Positions 2,508 through 20,410 of a stretch of 22,918 nt of DNA are shown piece by piece (the stretch's first letter is position 1; every line of letters begins with the position of its first letter). Source of the DNA: a virus; the IMG/VR virus record IMGVR_UViG_3300037189_004056, positions 1-22,918 of that record. The stretch is one strand, 5' to 3'. A program made the position numbers and the translations under genes. The notes under the pieces are model-generated. The model was not told the DNA's origin and made no database searches. It saw only the letters and a program-made list of their open reading frames with translations.

Positions 2508-3401
2508 GTGGGTCAAAGTACCTTTCCTGCTCCAGCATCAACTACTAATCCGCTTAGTGGTGTAACTCTTCAGCAAACAATTACTTCAACGGGCGCTGTA
2601 ACCATACCTTCAGGTATAACTCAGGTGTACGCTATTCTTATCGGTGGCGGCGCTGGCGGATCTTCAGCGGTGGTAAACGCAGGCGGTGTCGGTGGCGGCG
2701 CTGGTGGATACACTGCTGGTTGGACTGCTGTTTCTACAACTTGCACTATTGGCGCAGGCGGATCAGCCTCTTCCGCTGGCGGAAACACTATTTTTGGAAT
2801 TTTGATTGCAGGCGGCGGTGCTACAGAAAACTTTGGCGCTGGCGGTAGAGGTGGACTCACAGGTGGCGGCGGATATTTTGGCGGCACTGGTGGCCCTGCT
2901 GGCGCAAGCGGCGGTTCAGGTGTGGCGGGAAGCGCAGGTTACATTGGAATTGGCGGTGGCGGCGGCGGAAACGGCGGCGGCAACACAGGTGCAAGCCAAC
3001 CAGGTTGGGCTGGCGGTGCAGGTGGTCGCGGCGTAAGCGGCGGTGGCGGCGGTCAAGGTTCAACAGGCGCTTCTGGGGCTGGTACAAACGGAAACGGCGG
3101 CGCTGGCGGCGCTGGACAAATTGCAGGCGGCGGCGGCGGTAGTTTGGTAGCAACAAGCGGTAACTCAGGAACTGGTACTCCAGGCGCTGGCGGTAGCGGC
3201 AATTATGGATTAAATGCAGGCGGTAACGCTGCTGGTACAGGAACAGGCGGATTGGGTGCAGGCGGCGGTGGTGGATTTATTTCAGCAGGTTCAAATGGTT
3301 CAGGAACAACAGGCGGGGCTGGCGGTAACGGCGGCGGTGGCGGCGGCGGCGGAACAACTGGCGGCGTAGGCGGCAACGGCGTGTTGTACCTTTATTACTA
3401 G
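2508..3401 (+). CDS. Glycine-rich tail fibre/adhesin-like protein (copy 1)
   Basis: A 297-residue protein. After a 40-residue head (MGQSTFPAP) and a beta segment (GAVTIPSGITQVYAILIGG) it is almost entirely glycine runs broken by A, N, S and T up to a short hydrophobic end (GVLYLYY). Similar Gly-rich proteins occur at phage tail tips, and in the S16 gp38 adhesin Gly-rich segments pack as polyglycine II helices. The start is GTG, chosen because the paralogue at 3764 begins MGQSTYPAP in the same way. No good ribosome site precedes it and the preceding stop is two bases away, so it is probably translated by coupling. Confidence 0.65.
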   Translation: MGQSTFPAPASTTNPLSGVTLQQTITSTGAVTIPSGITQVYAILIGGGAGGSSAVVNAGGVGGGAGGYTAGWTAVSTTCTIGAGGSASSAGGNTIFGILIAGGGATENFGAGGRGGLTGGGGYFGGTGGPAGASGGSGVAGSAGYIGIGGGGGGNGGGNTGASQPGWAGGAGGRGVSGGGGGQGSTGASGAGTNGNGGAGGAGQIAGGGGGSLVATSGNSGTGTPGAGGSGNYGLNAGGNAAGTGTGGLGAGGGGGFISAGSNGSGTTGGAGGNGGGGGGGGTTGGVGGNGVLYLYY

Positions 3402-3410
3402 GAGATAAAA

Positions 3411-3764
3411 ATGGCTTTATTTGCTTCAATAGAACACGGCAAGATTTCTAATGTCGTAGTGGCTAACTCTCTTGCTGACGCTGAATTAGGAACAGGCTTG
3501 ACTTGTTTTGAGTTTGAACACACAGACGGAATTGTTGTTGGCGACCCTGTTGATGATAAAAAATTGGCTAAAATTAAAGCCGCAAAAGCCAAACAAGAAG
3601 CAGAGGCAAAAGCGGCAGCAGATAAAGCAGAAGCAGATCGTGTCAAGTCTATAGAATTAGAATTAGAACGCGCTCGTCAAGCGGAAGCGGAAAGACTTGC
3701 GGCTGAAGAAGCGGCTAAGCCTAAGCCTGTTACGGGCATTTTTGTGAAGGTGGAGAATAACTAA
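3411..3764 (+). CDS. Small tail-associated protein with coiled coil (paralogue of 4636-4806)
   Basis: 117 residues. The first 45 (MALFASIEHGKISNVVVANS, then TGLTCFEF and a GD) align with the 56-residue protein at 4636-4806. The rest is an Ala/Glu/Lys-rich helix, residues about 49-107, with strong coiled-coil character, ending GIFVKVENN. Small proteins of this pattern often follow tail fibre genes, where they may act as assembly chaperones or minor tail subunits; that role is inferred from position. AGGAG precedes the ATG. The stop overlaps the next ATG by one base. Confidence 0.6.
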   Translation: MALFASIEHGKISNVVVANSLADAELGTGLTCFEFEHTDGIVVGDPVDDKKLAKIKAAKAKQEAEAKAAADKAEADRVKSIELELERARQAEAERLAAEEAAKPKPVTGIFVKVENN

Positions 3765-4627
3765 TGGGTCAATCAACTTATCCCGCGCCTTCCGCTGGCG
3801 GATTTACTCGTATAGCAACACTCACTACAACTCAAACTTGGACTCACCCTGATAACCCTTCAGCATCAAACCCAAAACAAGTTCAAGTTATTTTGTACGG
3901 CGGCGGCGGTGGTGGCGGTGGCGGTGGCTGTAATCAAAACGGCTCTCCAAGCGGTTCAATAGGTTCAGCAAACGGCGGCGGTGGCGGCGGTTCGGGAATG
4001 ATGAACACTTTTACAACTTTAGTAACTGGCTCTGTCTCTGTTGTTATAGGCGCAGGCGGAACTGGCGCTACCGCTGTTTCTAGATCAACCGCAGGAAATA
4101 CAACAGGCGGTACTGGAGTTGCAGGCGGAATTACTTTTTTTGGCACTTTTGCAGCAAGCGGCGGGCTTGGCGGAACTGGCGGAACTTCATCAGACGGAAC
4201 TAACGGTACTTCGGCTGCTGGCGGCGGTGGCGGAATGTTTAACGGAACAACTTATTTATCAAGCGGCGGAAACGGCGCTAACAATACTACCGCTGCTGTT
4301 GCACCTACTCCTGCCGCTAATTTTCAAGCAGGATACGGAAACAATTTTTCTGGCGGCGGCGGTGGCGGTGGCTCAGCGTTGAATGTAAGCAGCACTACAA
4401 CTCGCGCTGCGGCTGCTGGATATGCAGGGTACGCAACTGGAGGAACAGGTGGTGGCGGCGATGTAGTGAACGGCGGTAACGCAACAGGCGGTACTGGTAC
4501 TGTTGGATCAACAGGCGGCGGTGGCGGTGGCGGCGGCGGTGGCGCTATTTCTTACAATGCGCTTTTAACATCTACTGGTGGCGCAGGCGGTACAGGCGGC
4601 GTTGGAACTGTTATTATTTTCTTTTAG
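3764..4627 (+). CDS. Glycine-rich tail fibre/adhesin-like protein (copy 2)
   Basis: A 287-residue paralogue of the protein at 2508-3401: same head (MGQSTYPAPSAGG), a beta segment with KQVQVILYGG in place of TQVYAILIGG, then glycine-rich blocks separated by short Thr/Asn/Ala stretches, ending GTVIIFF. It differs mainly in the longer non-glycine inserts (for example MMNTFTTLVTG and AGYAGYATGG), which are the likely variable, surface-exposed parts. Probably a receptor-binding or tail-tip decoration protein; function inferred from composition and position. Confidence 0.65.
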   Translation: MGQSTYPAPSAGGFTRIATLTTTQTWTHPDNPSASNPKQVQVILYGGGGGGGGGGCNQNGSPSGSIGSANGGGGGGSGMMNTFTTLVTGSVSVVIGAGGTGATAVSRSTAGNTTGGTGVAGGITFFGTFAASGGLGGTGGTSSDGTNGTSAAGGGGGMFNGTTYLSSGGNGANNTTAAVAPTPAANFQAGYGNNFSGGGGGGGSALNVSSTTTRAAAAGYAGYATGGTGGGGDVVNGGNATGGTGTVGSTGGGGGGGGGGAISYNALLTSTGGAGGTGGVGTVIIFF

Positions 4628-4810: not shown

Positions 4811-5911
4811 ATGCCTACAACAACATACCGATACCTGTTTGCTGATTTACTGACCAACAGTATTCTTGCCGAACTTCCAATCACAGGCGTAAATTTCACG
4901 CAGCAACTCAACTCTGCGGGTACTTTCACAGGTCACTTGCTATTGTCGGGCGTAAATGCGTCTGGACTCAACGTAGATAACGGAACAATCCCAGGGCGCA
5001 CCGCAGTGTATGTGGATCGTAACGGCGTATTGGTTTGGGGTGGAGTGCTTTGGGGGCGCGAGTACGACAGCACAGGACAGACACTCACCTTTCAAGCAAG
5101 AGAGTTTGAGTCATACTTTGAGCGCAGACGCATTACAACTACGCGCGTATTTAACAACACCGACCAACTCACTATTGCTCAAACCCTAGTCAATGACGCT
5201 CAATCAACGGCGGCGGGCAATATTGGCGTTGTTGTTCCGTCAAACACGTCAGGCGTTCTAGTCAGCCGCACTTACTACGCGTATGAATTGAAGGGCGTGT
5301 ACCCAGCGTTGCAGGATCTTTCACGCCAAACAAACGGCTTTGATATGAACATTGAAGTGTCTTACAACGGCGGCGGAAATCCAATCAAGACGCTTAACTT
5401 GTCTTATCCGCGCGCTGGTGTTGCTTATACATCCTCAAGTTACATTGTACCAACCTTTGAGTTCCCTGCGGGTAACGTGGTTGAATACTATTATCCTGAA
5501 GATGGGTCTATTGCAGCCAATACAATTTACGCGCTAGGCGCTGGATCAAACGAAGGCAAGTTGATAGCAACAGCAACGGACACTTCCAAGACAAGTACTG
5601 GTTGGCCGCTTCTTGAGGATCAGGCTAACTACTCAGATGTAACAGACGCAACAATGTTGGCTGGACTAGCAAGCGGTCAGGTTGCAGCCGTATCGTATCC
5701 ACCAACTACCTTGAAGGTTACAGTTCCGCCGTATGAAAATCCAACTTTTGGTACATACAAGATTGGTGATGACGCGCGAGTTATTATCCAAGACAGCCGC
5801 TTCCCAACAGGGCTAAACGCGATTTACCGCATTGTTGCTTTCAATGTAGCCCCAGGTGAAAATGGTCCAGAACGCGTAACATTGACCTTGACTACTGGAA
5901 CAGGTGCGTAA
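4811..5911 (+). CDS. Tail hub/minor tail protein (ReqiPepy6 Gp37-like)
   Basis: A 366-residue protein. Residues 1-115 carry the pattern of actinophage minor tail proteins related to ReqiPepy6 Gp37: LPITGVNFTQQLNSAGTFTG, then PGRTAVYVDRNG, GVLVWGGVLWGREYD, and an FQAREFESYFERRRI stretch. The C-terminal part has NPTFGTYKIGDDARVII and a closing beta region. These proteins usually form the baseplate hub (Tal-like) beneath the tail tube. ATG lies four bases after the previous stop with little Shine-Dalgarno sequence. Its stop shares one base with the next gene. Confidence 0.7.
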   Translation: MPTTTYRYLFADLLTNSILAELPITGVNFTQQLNSAGTFTGHLLLSGVNASGLNVDNGTIPGRTAVYVDRNGVLVWGGVLWGREYDSTGQTLTFQAREFESYFERRRITTTRVFNNTDQLTIAQTLVNDAQSTAAGNIGVVVPSNTSGVLVSRTYYAYELKGVYPALQDLSRQTNGFDMNIEVSYNGGGNPIKTLNLSYPRAGVAYTSSSYIVPTFEFPAGNVVEYYYPEDGSIAANTIYALGAGSNEGKLIATATDTSKTSTGWPLLEDQANYSDVTDATMLAGLASGQVAAVSYPPTTLKVTVPPYENPTFGTYKIGDDARVIIQDSRFPTGLNAIYRIVAFNVAPGENGPERVTLTLTTGTGA

Positions 5912-11732: not shown

Positions 11733-12396
11733 CTTAAACAACATGCTCACCAAGTCATTGAAAGGCTACGACAAGCAGCGGGATCGCAGCCAACAGGTTG
11801 AGGTTGGTCCAAGCAGTATTGGCGGCTGCCGCAGGCAAGTGTGGCATGAACTCAAGCGCACGCCAGAGACAAATCCTGATACTGAGTCATTGGCAGCAAT
11901 ACTTGGTACGTTTATTCACTCAGGGATTGAGAAAGCGGTCAAGCGTGAAGATCCGTTTGGAGACAACTTCATGACCGAAGTTACCGTTGAGTATGACGGG
12001 CTAAAAGGTCATTGTGATTTGTTCATCAAAGATCAAGGCATTGTTGTTGATTGGAAAACAACCAAAGTCAAATCACTACGCTACTTCCCGTCAAAGCAGC
12101 AGCGGATGCAGGTGCAGATTTACGGTTGGTTGCTCACCAAAATGGGTCACACCGTCAACTACGTATCGCTGGTTGCGATCCCGCGTGACGGTGAAATGGC
12201 TGAGATCAAATCGCACATTGAACCCTACGACCCGCCAACGGCGGAAGCGGGCATTGCTTGGCTTGAGGAACTAAAGTTGATTGTCGCCAACAATGACCCA
12301 GCACCAGCGCCAGAGGAAAGTGTTTTCTTTTGCTCGCGGTACTGTAACTACTATGACCCGACAGGAGAAATAGGTTGCCCAAGTATGCGGAAGTAG
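11725..12396 (+). CDS. Cas4/RecB-like PD-(D/E)XK exonuclease with Fe-S cysteines
   Basis: 223 residues. Nuclease motifs in order: GTFIHSGIE (H65), GHCDLF (D98), VVDWKTTK (D109, K111) and QVQIYGWL (Q129, Y133), the complete RecB/Cas4 set. Four cysteines bracket the domain (C35, then C203, C207 and C218 at the C-terminus), the arrangement that holds a [4Fe-4S] cluster in Cas4 and AddB-type nucleases. With the annealing-like protein at 9795 it likely forms a phage recombination pair that resects DNA ends. AAGGAG supports the ATG. Confidence 0.8.
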   Translation: MIDLNNMLTKSLKGYDKQRDRSQQVEVGPSSIGGCRRQVWHELKRTPETNPDTESLAAILGTFIHSGIEKAVKREDPFGDNFMTEVTVEYDGLKGHCDLFIKDQGIVVDWKTTKVKSLRYFPSKQQRMQVQIYGWLLTKMGHTVNYVSLVAIPRDGEMAEIKSHIEPYDPPTAEAGIAWLEELKLIVANNDPAPAPEESVFFCSRYCNYYDPTGEIGCPSMRK

Positions 12397-12719
12397 ATTG
12401 GGAGAAGGCTGAGTGCAAGGGGATTGAGACAGATACTTTCTATTGGGTTGAAGAGTCACGGAACAAAAGCGCCTACGCCTACATTGATGCGGTGCGTTCA
12501 GTTTGCGCTCGCTGCCCGATATGGAGTCAATGTCTGGAGTATGCGTTGGAGAACGAGCAGTATGGAGTTTGGGGTGGCATGACTAGCCTTGAGCGCAAGT
12601 CTTTTCTTGAACCCAACAAGTATCCCGCCCAGCAACAGCGGGCGATTACTTCTTTCAATGAGAACGGTATATCTATTGAACAGGTGAGGCAGGTTTATGA
12701 GCATACGGCTGATGAGTGA
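12375..12719 (+). CDS. WhiB-family Fe-S transcription factor
   Basis: 114 residues. The four conserved cysteines are C14, C44, C47 and C53 (AECKG; CARCPIWSQC), followed by the G-V-W-G-G turn (YGVWGGMTSLER), the full WhiB signature. WhiB proteins are confined to Actinobacteria and their phages, which fixes the host phylum. Phage versions such as that of mycobacteriophage TM4 act on host WhiB-dependent transcription. The start is TTG with AGGAGAAATAGG upstream, overlapping the exonuclease gene by 22 bases. A helical C-terminal tail follows the domain. Confidence 0.85.
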   Translation: MPKYAEVDWEKAECKGIETDTFYWVEESRNKSAYAYIDAVRSVCARCPIWSQCLEYALENEQYGVWGGMTSLERKSFLEPNKYPAQQQRAITSFNENGISIEQVRQVYEHTADE

Positions 12720-13530
12720 GGTTTGGCGTACGAAGTTACCCACGGTTGAAAAAATGGTGCTGCTGGTTATAGCGGATCATGCTAACGATGAAGGCACAGA
12801 GGCTTGGCCGTCACAGGCGACCATTGCTACGAAGGCTAGTATTAGTGTGAGAACCGTCCAGCGTGCGGTCAATTCGTTGGTCAGTGCTGGGTTTCTGCGG
12901 CTTGAAAAACACGCAGGCGGATCTGCTAATTGTAGAGAGGATCGCAGACCGCATAGGTACACGATGATCCTTTCTGCGCTACGGGGCGACTCTGCGACCA
13001 CTCGTACAGTACGGGGCGACTCTGACGGCGATGACGGGGCGACTATCACGCCTGATGCGGGGCGACTCTTACGCCCTAAGAACCTTTCTTTAGATCCTTC
13101 CTTAGAAACACCCAGCGGTGTTGTTGTAGCCAATACCGACTTCAATGAATTCTGGAGTGTGTATCCGACTAGGGTGGGAAAGCAGGCGGCGATCAAGGCT
13201 TGGGAGAAGGCAATCCTTCAGGCGGATGCTGCAACCATAGTTGAAGGGGCGCGCAGGTATGCACAAGATCCAAACCGTCACCCGTCATATACTGCGCACC
13301 CTTCAACATGGCTCAACGCTGGCAGGTGGGCTGACGATCCACTCCCACCCAGAGAGTTGAACCCTGCTGAGAAAAGGGCGCAGGAAGCCGCAGAAGCCGC
13401 TAGAAAGGCTGAATACGAGCGCACTAGAAGCGCTGAGTTGTCTCGGCTTGACGCTGAGGCGCGAGCGCGAGCAGTACCTATGCCCGACAACATTAAGGAG
13501 ACGCTGCGGAAGGTGCTTGGCTCAAGGTAG
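12697..13530 (+). CDS. Helix-turn-helix replication initiator (O/DnaD-like)
   Basis: 277 residues. N-terminal winged HTH (about 15-75: KMVLLVIADHANDEGTEAWP, SISVRTVQRAVNSLVSAGFL), a low-complexity linker (95-140), a C-terminal segment FNEFWSVYPTRVGKQAAIKA (149-168) with HPSTWLNAGRW as in phage replication proteins, and a charged helical tail. This layout resembles lambda O-type initiators. The linker DNA carries four iteron-like repeats. ATG at 12697 has TGAGGCAGG upstream; ATG at 12712 is an alternative. No helicase, primase or polymerase gene is visible in the window, so host replication enzymes may be recruited. Confidence 0.7.
   Translation: MSIRLMSEVWRTKLPTVEKMVLLVIADHANDEGTEAWPSQATIATKASISVRTVQRAVNSLVSAGFLRLEKHAGGSANCREDRRPHRYTMILSALRGDSATTRTVRGDSDGDDGATITPDAGRLLRPKNLSLDPSLETPSGVVVANTDFNEFWSVYPTRVGKQAAIKAWEKAILQADAATIVEGARRYAQDPNRHPSYTAHPSTWLNAGRWADDPLPPRELNPAEKRAQEAAEAARKAEYERTRSAELSRLDAEARARAVPMPDNIKETLRKVLGSR
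12981..13069. repeat. Four iteron-like repeats, candidate replication origin
   Basis: CGGGGCGACT occurs exactly four times, at 12982, 13012, 13035 and 13058 (spacings 30, 23, 23), three of them extended to CGGGGCGACTCT. The copies fall in three different codon frames (encoding RGDS, RGDS, DGAT and AGRL), so the repetition is conserved at DNA level. Direct repeats within the initiator gene are the hallmark of lambda-type origins, where the O protein binds. The initiator encoded here is the natural ligand. Confidence 0.65.
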
Positions 13531-19738: not shown

Positions 19739-20410
19739 ATGGAAATCATAAAGGCGTCAGTATCGGATCTCAAGGAGTATCACAACAACCCGCGTAAAGG
19801 CAACGTGGATCTTATTGCTGAGTCATTAAGCAAGTACGGTCAATACAAGCCGATTACCGTTAGCAAACAAACAGGCGAGATCCTTGCAGGCAATCACACT
19901 TATCGCGCAGCCAAGAAACTAGGTTGGTCTGAAATTGATGTTGTTTACGTAGATGTAGATAACGTAACAGCAGCCAAGATTGTCGCAATAGATAACAGAG
20001 CGTCAGATATGGGCGAGTACGACAAGCAAGTGTTGGCGGATCTCTTGGACAGCATGAACAACCTTGACGGATCTGGTTACACTTTTGACGAGTATGACGA
20101 CTTGAAGGCTGAAATACAAGAAGCGTCTATGCCCGAACTTGAACATAAAACATACTTTTCATCTCTTGAAGTAGGCGAAACAGGTCAATCTGGTACGCGG
20201 TTTATCCCCTCACTTGGAGATTACGCTGAGCGATACATCAACAAGGCTACCCGTATGTTGATGTGCGATTATCATAACGATACGTATGTATGGATCGTAG
20301 AAGCGCTGATTGAATATCGGACAGCCAACGACATATCTAGCAACGCTGAAGCAATTTTGCGCCTTGTAGAGAACGCAGTAGGGAGAAAGTCTGAGCATGA
20401 AACTATCTGA
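19739..20410 (+). CDS. ParB/Srx-fold protein
   Basis: 223 residues. Residues 1-75 are a ParB N-terminal-like domain: NNPRKGNVDLIAESLSKYG, KPITV, and the loop GNHTYRAAKKLG (G51-R56). Phages often carry such stand-alone domains; relatives are nucleases, NTPases or DNA-binding proteins. Residues 135-215 form a separate C-terminal domain (FIPSLGDYAERYINKATRML, WIVEALIEYRTAND) unlike plasmid partition proteins. It overlaps the oxygenase gene by 14 bases, so a role in the modification system, such as target recognition, is plausible but inferred. Confidence 0.7.
   Translation: MEIIKASVSDLKEYHNNPRKGNVDLIAESLSKYGQYKPITVSKQTGEILAGNHTYRAAKKLGWSEIDVVYVDVDNVTAAKIVAIDNRASDMGEYDKQVLADLLDSMNNLDGSGYTFDEYDDLKAEIQEASMPELEHKTYFSSLEVGETGQSGTRFIPSLGDYAERYINKATRMLMCDYHNDTYVWIVEALIEYRTANDISSNAEAILRLVENAVGRKSEHETI

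Follow-up and report, generated by a model that had tools for sequence, protein, structure and literature searches.

A Probable Lambda-Like Replication Origin within a Phage Initiator Gene and a Box Array That Recurs beside Different Iterons

Within the gene of its replication initiator, the viral DNA analysed here (the window; 22,918 nt, positions 1 to 22,918 of IMG/VR record IMGVR_UViG_3300037189_004056) carries an element of about 140 bp that most probably is a lambda-like replication origin embedded in its own initiator gene; the probability of this reading, which includes initiator binding, melting of the tail, and helicase loading as proposed below, is put at roughly 0.8. The element consists of four iterons and a downstream tail of GAACC-type boxes. 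Origins inside initiator genes have long been known from lambda, SPP1, and P1 repL, so that the window represents a further case. Apparently new is the box array, which, unlike the iterons, can still be recognised in phages from different host phyla; no description of such a shared array was found in the open-licence literature, and an earlier one may exist elsewhere. With this layout, sequence alone would suffice to pinpoint, with a resolution of about 140 bp, the origins of large numbers of uncultured phages in their initiator genes. The near-constancy of the boxes beside iterons that have changed beyond recognition suggests that actinobacterial and proteobacterial phages have in common a still unnamed reader of melted origin DNA.

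The Initiator Gene and Its Product

The gene had been taken for a replication initiator in a preliminary description made from the letters of the window, and profile searches agree: residues 1-242 match phrog_270, “replication initiation protein” (E 2.6e-41), and a HTH_36 winged helix is found with an E value of 1.4e-17. Families of the “replication initiation O-like” type match the N-terminal half (phrog_391, E 4.3e-16; phrog_8540, E 1.1e-16). The protein thus combines the winged-helix N-terminal domain and the conserved C-terminal domain of the HTH_36 initiator family (phrog_270). In the AlphaFold2 model, built with 43 sequences, the winged helix is followed by a disordered linker (pLDDT ~42) and a helical C-terminal domain (Table 1). 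Residues 1-99 resemble winged helices of the MarR/CRP/TFE type (VIA Z 8-10). The C-terminal domain gave no convincing fold match, the best (VIA Z 4.3) being to one long helix; a missing match is in itself no argument against a family. A solved structure similar by sequence to the initiator was not found. The C-terminal domain is probably the contact to the replicative helicase or its loader. No helicase or P-like loader gene was seen among the window proteins scanned, which were part of the ORFs of a partial record.

The end of a WhiB-like gene (12375-12719) overlaps the start of the initiator gene by 23 bp, which suggests coupled expression, and the WhiB-like gene itself points to an actinobacterial host; one relative (L109) lies in a metagenome-assembled genome labelled Actinomycetota. 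Neighbouring genes encode a Cas4-like exonuclease, a RusA resolvase, a single-strand binding protein, and a ParB-like protein, the last at 19739-20410 (phrog_723, E 1.2e-46). The genes in the first 5 kb of the window include two very glycine-rich ORFs (2508-3401 and 3764-4627).

Table 1: Features of the initiator gene and of the proposed origin (positions in the window).
Feature	Position	Strand	Remarks
Replication initiator gene, 277 aa	12697..13530	+	HTH_36, phrog_270, AlphaFold2
Winged-helix DNA-binding domain, residues 1-97	12697..12987	+	pLDDT mostly 75-94
Disordered linker, residues 98-145; its DNA is the proposed origin	12988..13131	+	pLDDT ~40-47 over most
C-terminal helical domain	13132..13530	+	phrog_9327/9474 primosomal/initiation matches, residues 143-242
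DNA-constrained block, proposed origin	12975..13113	.	synonymous codons frozen
Iteron 1	12981..12991	+	ACGGGGCGACT
Iteron 2	13011..13021	+	ACGGGGCGACT
Iteron 3	13034..13044	+	ACGGGGCGACT
Iteron 4	13057..13067	+	GCGGGGCGACT; most relatives: ACGGGGCGACT
Interrupted dyad, 19 bp, at iteron 4	13059..13077	+	GGGGCG-N7-CGCCCT
Least stable 35-bp window of gene, probable unwinding element	13076..13110	.	nearest-neighbour energy, rank 1/799
Tail box 1	13080..13088	+	GAACCTTTC; family consensus GAACCA(T/C)CC
Tail box 2	13093..13101	+	GATCCTTCC; family consensus GAACCA(T/C)CC; 13 nt after box 1
Tail box 3	13105..13112	+	GAAACACC, as in the family consensus; 12 nt after box 2

The Iterons

The 10-mer CGGGGCGACT occurs in four exact copies in the window (12982-12991, 13012-13021, 13035-13044, and 13058-13067; 0.01 expected from shuffled sequences) with spacings of 30, 23, and 23 bp, in every detail as first described; a fifth copy is absent from the window, even when one mismatch is allowed. 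The longest stretch common to a pair of copies is TACGGGGCGACTCTG. The copies stand in codon phases 1, 1, 0, and 2 and are read as LRGDSA, VRGDSD, DGATIT, and DAGRLL; three phases are therefore used, with the readings given previously. Their place between the DNA-binding and the C-terminal domain matches that of the lambda origin in gene O, to which it had been likened.

A good interrupted dyad is formed only at the fourth, tract-proximal iteron. Family means for paired positions at a gap of 7 are 4.7 of 6 at iteron 4, and 3.3, 2.2, and 1.9 at iterons 3, 2, and 1, respectively, corresponding to a strong dyad at iteron 4 and a moderate one at iteron 3. Across the family, the arm CG(C/A)CC hardly varies (conserved columns 13072-13076). 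From this distribution, strength or the number of subunits bound may vary from copy to copy.

Selection on the DNA

Relatives were collected from viral contigs in two overlapping sets of 17 and then 80. In up to 71 of them the repeats hold their places and change together. The closest relatives have the four repeats at gene positions 287, 317, 340, and 363, whatever amino acids are encoded. The preliminary description had named two findings that would speak against an origin, namely, a 10-mer scattered over the genome and repeats absent from close relatives with the same initiator. Neither was found: the close relatives keep the repeats, the 10-mer forms a single cluster in the window, and in 12 records of relatives (23-43 kb) the 9-mer CGGGGCGAC is present only as a cluster of at most four copies, except for a single remote copy in one of the records. 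CGGGGCGAC is missing from two divergent relatives because their iterons differ. Concerted change is evident from the variants: L099 carries CGAGGCGAAA in three copies and CGGGGCGAAA in the fourth, with GGCGAAA in all four; L092 and L105 have ACGACCCG in two or three copies, and L017-L021 have ACGACACGACT in two. Identity of the iteron core within a genome is 0.872 versus 0.810 (sd 0.005) when copies are shuffled among genomes; none of 2000 shuffles reached 0.872. The most different iteron of all relatives, GGGCGGACG, is that of L086, in which the recognition-helix region differs as well (RQVRRHVNE versus RTVQRAVNS). Such a paired change, although a single case, is as would be expected of a protein that reads the repeat.

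Synonymous conservation was measured per codon as the use of the same codon among relatives sharing the amino acid, relative to what codon usage would predict. For most of the gene this excess stays near 0.05; it rises abruptly at residue 94 and declines again after residue ~140. Its average is 0.405 over the iteron codons (95-126), 0.454 over the next twelve (127-138), and 0.055 elsewhere in the gene; 20,000 random draws from that remainder gave maxima of 0.104 for the iteron comparison and 0.161 for the tail comparison. The earlier claim that selection acts on the DNA is borne out by these values. According to this profile, the constrained element extends over about 140 bp, of which the span reported earlier (12981-13069) had taken in the iterons, that is, the first two thirds; the remainder, 13070-13113, had been missed, and the interpretation was incomplete because it left out the downstream GAACC box array. 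The constrained DNA nearly coincides with the disordered stretch of the protein. Being disordered, the linker can take almost any sequence, so that the protein tolerates an embedded origin. GC skew, which had been suggested as a check, shows no sign change near 13.0 kb and hence lends no support to an origin.

The Tail and the Proposed Course of Initiation

The tail consensus was derived from column counts in 53 sequences; the boxes of the window itself are degenerate (GAACC, GATCC, and GAAAC). The AT content is 63% in the tail, where G makes up 9%, and 35% in the iterons. By computed duplex stability the tail ranks lowest in the gene, which makes it the natural place for strand opening. The weak AT-rich tract lies next to the last iteron, starting at 13076, and contains tandem short repeats about 11-13 nt apart (13080, 13093, and 13105), as is the case in origins of the oriC/RK2 type.

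By analogy with lambda and plasmid RK2, initiation could proceed as follows. The winged-helix domains of the initiator would bind the four iterons and form a nucleoprotein complex, the iteron period of 23 bp corresponding to about two helical turns and the first gap being 30 bp. The resulting strain would melt the weak duplex directly downstream (13076-13112), where the boxes lie. One strand, poor in G and carrying the GAACC boxes, would thereby be exposed as a landing site, probably held single-stranded by the initiator or a partner, and the replicative helicase would be loaded there with the help of the C-terminal domain. The sequence data show the element itself and the constraint on both its iterons and its tail; binding, strand opening, single-strand docking, and helicase loading are inferred.

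Comparison with Known Origins

The closest parallel is gene O of lambda and related O genes (PMC7466680), where the origin likewise lies inside the initiator gene, with four iterons about 20-24 bp apart (annotated spacings in lambda, 20/24/23), copies in different codon phases, and a weak tract on the same side; an O-like N-terminal domain is recognised by profile in the window as well. There, O attaches to the iterons and the AT-rich tract next to them opens; O is also able to bind single strands rich in A/T, and two iterons together with the tract are enough for unwinding (PMC7466680). Differences concern the iteron sequence, the A-rich tract of lambda in place of the GAACC box array, and the C-terminal domain. 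Moreover, lambda iterons are dyads, whereas those of the window are for the most part direct repeats, only the copy next to the tract forming a clear dyad. The window thus has an initiator of the O-like/HTH_36 class and at least three linker iterons about two helical turns apart that are kept in relatives, but not every iteron is an interrupted dyad; the site is therefore called lambda-like and is kept apart from the lambda origin family proper.

In SPP1, oriL within gene 38 combines initiator-bound repeats and an AT-rich unwinding element (PMC6316719). SPP1 belongs to another phage group and possesses, in addition to oriL, the origin oriR, which lies outside the gene, whereas no second repeat cluster was seen in the window. 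The 13-mers of oriC and of plasmid RK2 (PMC4980987) resemble the tail in being repeats of about 11-13 nt beside the double-strand sites of the initiator. TrfA, the RK2 initiator, binds a single strand of the four 13-mers in the unwinding element and requires all four of them (PMC4980987). Those 13-mers are T-rich or A-rich, in contrast to GAACC(A/G)TC, for which single-strand binding would be the corresponding role. The P1 repL origin also resides in coding sequence, where its function was revealed by synonymous changes; an AT-rich region was the required element, and the abstract mentions no iteron array comparable to that of the window (PMC9948254).

Recurrence of the Layout in Other Phages

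Iterons followed by GAACC-type boxes are also found in named phages; in the Arthrobacter phages and in JBD68, the initiators belong to the same protein family and the iterons lie in the linker. The Arthrobacter phages (PhluffyCoco, Kuleana, and Abidatro) carry the iterons GGGGTGCAC, GGGGTGAAC, and GGGGTGCCA at the same place in the gene and with spacings of 30/22/22/22, and thereafter GAACCGTCCTT repeats that recur every 11 nt and use all three frames. Pseudomonas phage JBD68 has five copies of CGGGGTGCAA and then AACCACCAAAG repeats, as compared with GGGGCGACT in the window phage. The feature tables consulted for these four phages contain no origin annotation at the sites. In the JBD68 family, with its different iterons, the block of synonymous conservation again spans iterons and tail. 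Phage MD8 has seven copies of ACCCCCGCAG followed by four GAACC boxes, and E. coli phage mEp013 has four of AGTGTCACAG followed by AACCAGTC.

Independently of any gene, the viral collection was scanned for three boxes AACC[A/G]TC (AACCRTC) spaced 10-13 nt apart. This yielded at least 120 stretches, which are those found first and not a random sample. Among the matches listed, 99 of 115 evaluable hits had at least three chained 9-mer iterons within 200 nt upstream, compared with 16 of 484 positions drawn at random from those loci; with near-duplicates removed, this applied to 76 of the 91 distinct sites among the matches listed, the iteron sequences there being of many unrelated kinds. The permuted control ACACRTC, of identical composition, gave 33 stretches in a complete scan, and such iterons accompanied 2 of 34 matches. 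A looser pattern, two copies of GAACCAGTC, is less specific and also catches coding repeats (at least three iterons at 18 of 38 distinct sites).

At two sites, iterons and tail occur in the absence of a sense ORF of 60 codons (L188/L231 and L140), so that no initiator peptide could be under selection there. In L231 (8944 bp; the same in L188), the intergenic region at ~4950-5320 contains about five palindromic iterons GGTGACAG(G/A)TTGTCACC and then three AACCGTC boxes. A Pfam scan of five neighbouring ORFs revealed no initiator; DUF932 and DUF1281 proteins are encoded nearby. This array is a possible origin outside a gene, and a plasmid relative of the site was not found. In L140, intergenic AAAGGGTGACA iterons at 2400-2620 are followed by three AACCGTC boxes, between a long minus-strand ORF and a terminase region.

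The scan bears on several other explanations of the element. One is that the repeats code for a peptide under selection, such as an RGD or EPS motif; two copies do encode RGDS. Among the matches listed, spacings of 10, 11, 12, and 13 nt between neighbouring boxes occurred in 35, 68, 52, and 10 cases (mode 11; the pattern allowed 10-13), which means that 68% of them, being 10, 11, or 13 nt, shift the reading frame. The peptide stretch is, moreover, disordered, and the three codon phases together with the frozen synonymous codons rule this explanation out. Selection might instead concern the mRNA, through structure, translation control, or Rho loading, the last being favoured by the sense strand of the tail, some 40 nt of which are rich in C and poor in G. 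A fixed box core is, to our knowledge, not a Rho feature. Exact direct repeats every ~22-23 nt fit two turns of the DNA helix, and the layout persists at the loci without a sense ORF described above, which renders selection on mRNA very improbable.

Winged-helix proteins are often repressors, and a site inside a gene could conceivably act as a roadblock. The repeats might accordingly form a regulatory site other than an origin, be it an operator through which the initiator operon regulates itself, a site used in partition by the ParB-like protein, whose gene the phage does possess, or a packaging site. This is improbable in view of the recurrence of iterons and weak boxes inside initiator genes: among the matches listed, 83 of 99 ORFs over the blind hits match phrog_270 and 79 of 99 match HTH_36. 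Also, the repeat has no further copy in the window or, apart from the one exception, in the records of relatives, and the arrangement of iterons and weak tract is that of the proven origins of lambda and SPP1 (PMC7466680, PMC6316719).

More weight has to be given to the question of whether the tail is read by a protein. It could be a passive unwinding element of weak duplex in which GAACC arises incidentally from codon usage and a scarcity of G. The tail is indeed the least stable part of the gene, distinct tail loci are G-poor (G 0.15, among the matches listed), lambda has at this place an A-rich tract without GAACC, and the boxes drift in the window itself to GATCC and GAAAC. A purely passive tail is nevertheless unlikely, because phages from several host groups have the AACC(A/G)TC core next to iterons that are unrelated, the permuted motif is found in far fewer stretches of the whole collection and lacks the iteron context, and the positions of the boxes vary little or not at all in the 53 sequences, though AT-only DNA would melt better. 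Tentatively, and at somewhat below even odds, the GAACC(A/G)TC array may be a sequence-specific docking site for single strands, a counterpart of the oriC 13-mers that is common to phages of several bacterial phyla whose initiators are of the HTH_36 type. It would be read by a host replication protein or by a conserved segment of the initiator; the neighbouring iterons would be free to diverge and would give each phage an initiator specificity of its own.

The generality of the tail was assessed in a sample drawn without regard to it, comprising 31 phrog_270 matches from bacterial genomes, nearly all of Pseudomonadota and including initiators with other N-terminal domains. A search of 197 actinobacterial genomes with phrog_270 returned only the seed, at E 1e-18. 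Iterons were present in 16 of the 31 unselected initiators (9% in synonymous shuffles) and chained GAACC boxes in 12, versus 4.0 expected from synonymous shuffling; nine of these 12 had iterons as well. A universal tail is rejected on these numbers. Two or more AACCRTC-like boxes were seen in only four of the 31, and several initiators carry GAACCAGTCA in place of the AACCRTC-type box. The tail is hence frequent but not universal, and its common core is GAACC.

Some of the hits with three AACCRTC boxes were set aside as not being origins, namely, those in tandem AACCGTCACCG repeats (L192, L197, and L249). These loci and L169 carry tandem AACCGTCACCG(G/T), in places with periods of 18 to 24 nt, and are unrelated to initiators.
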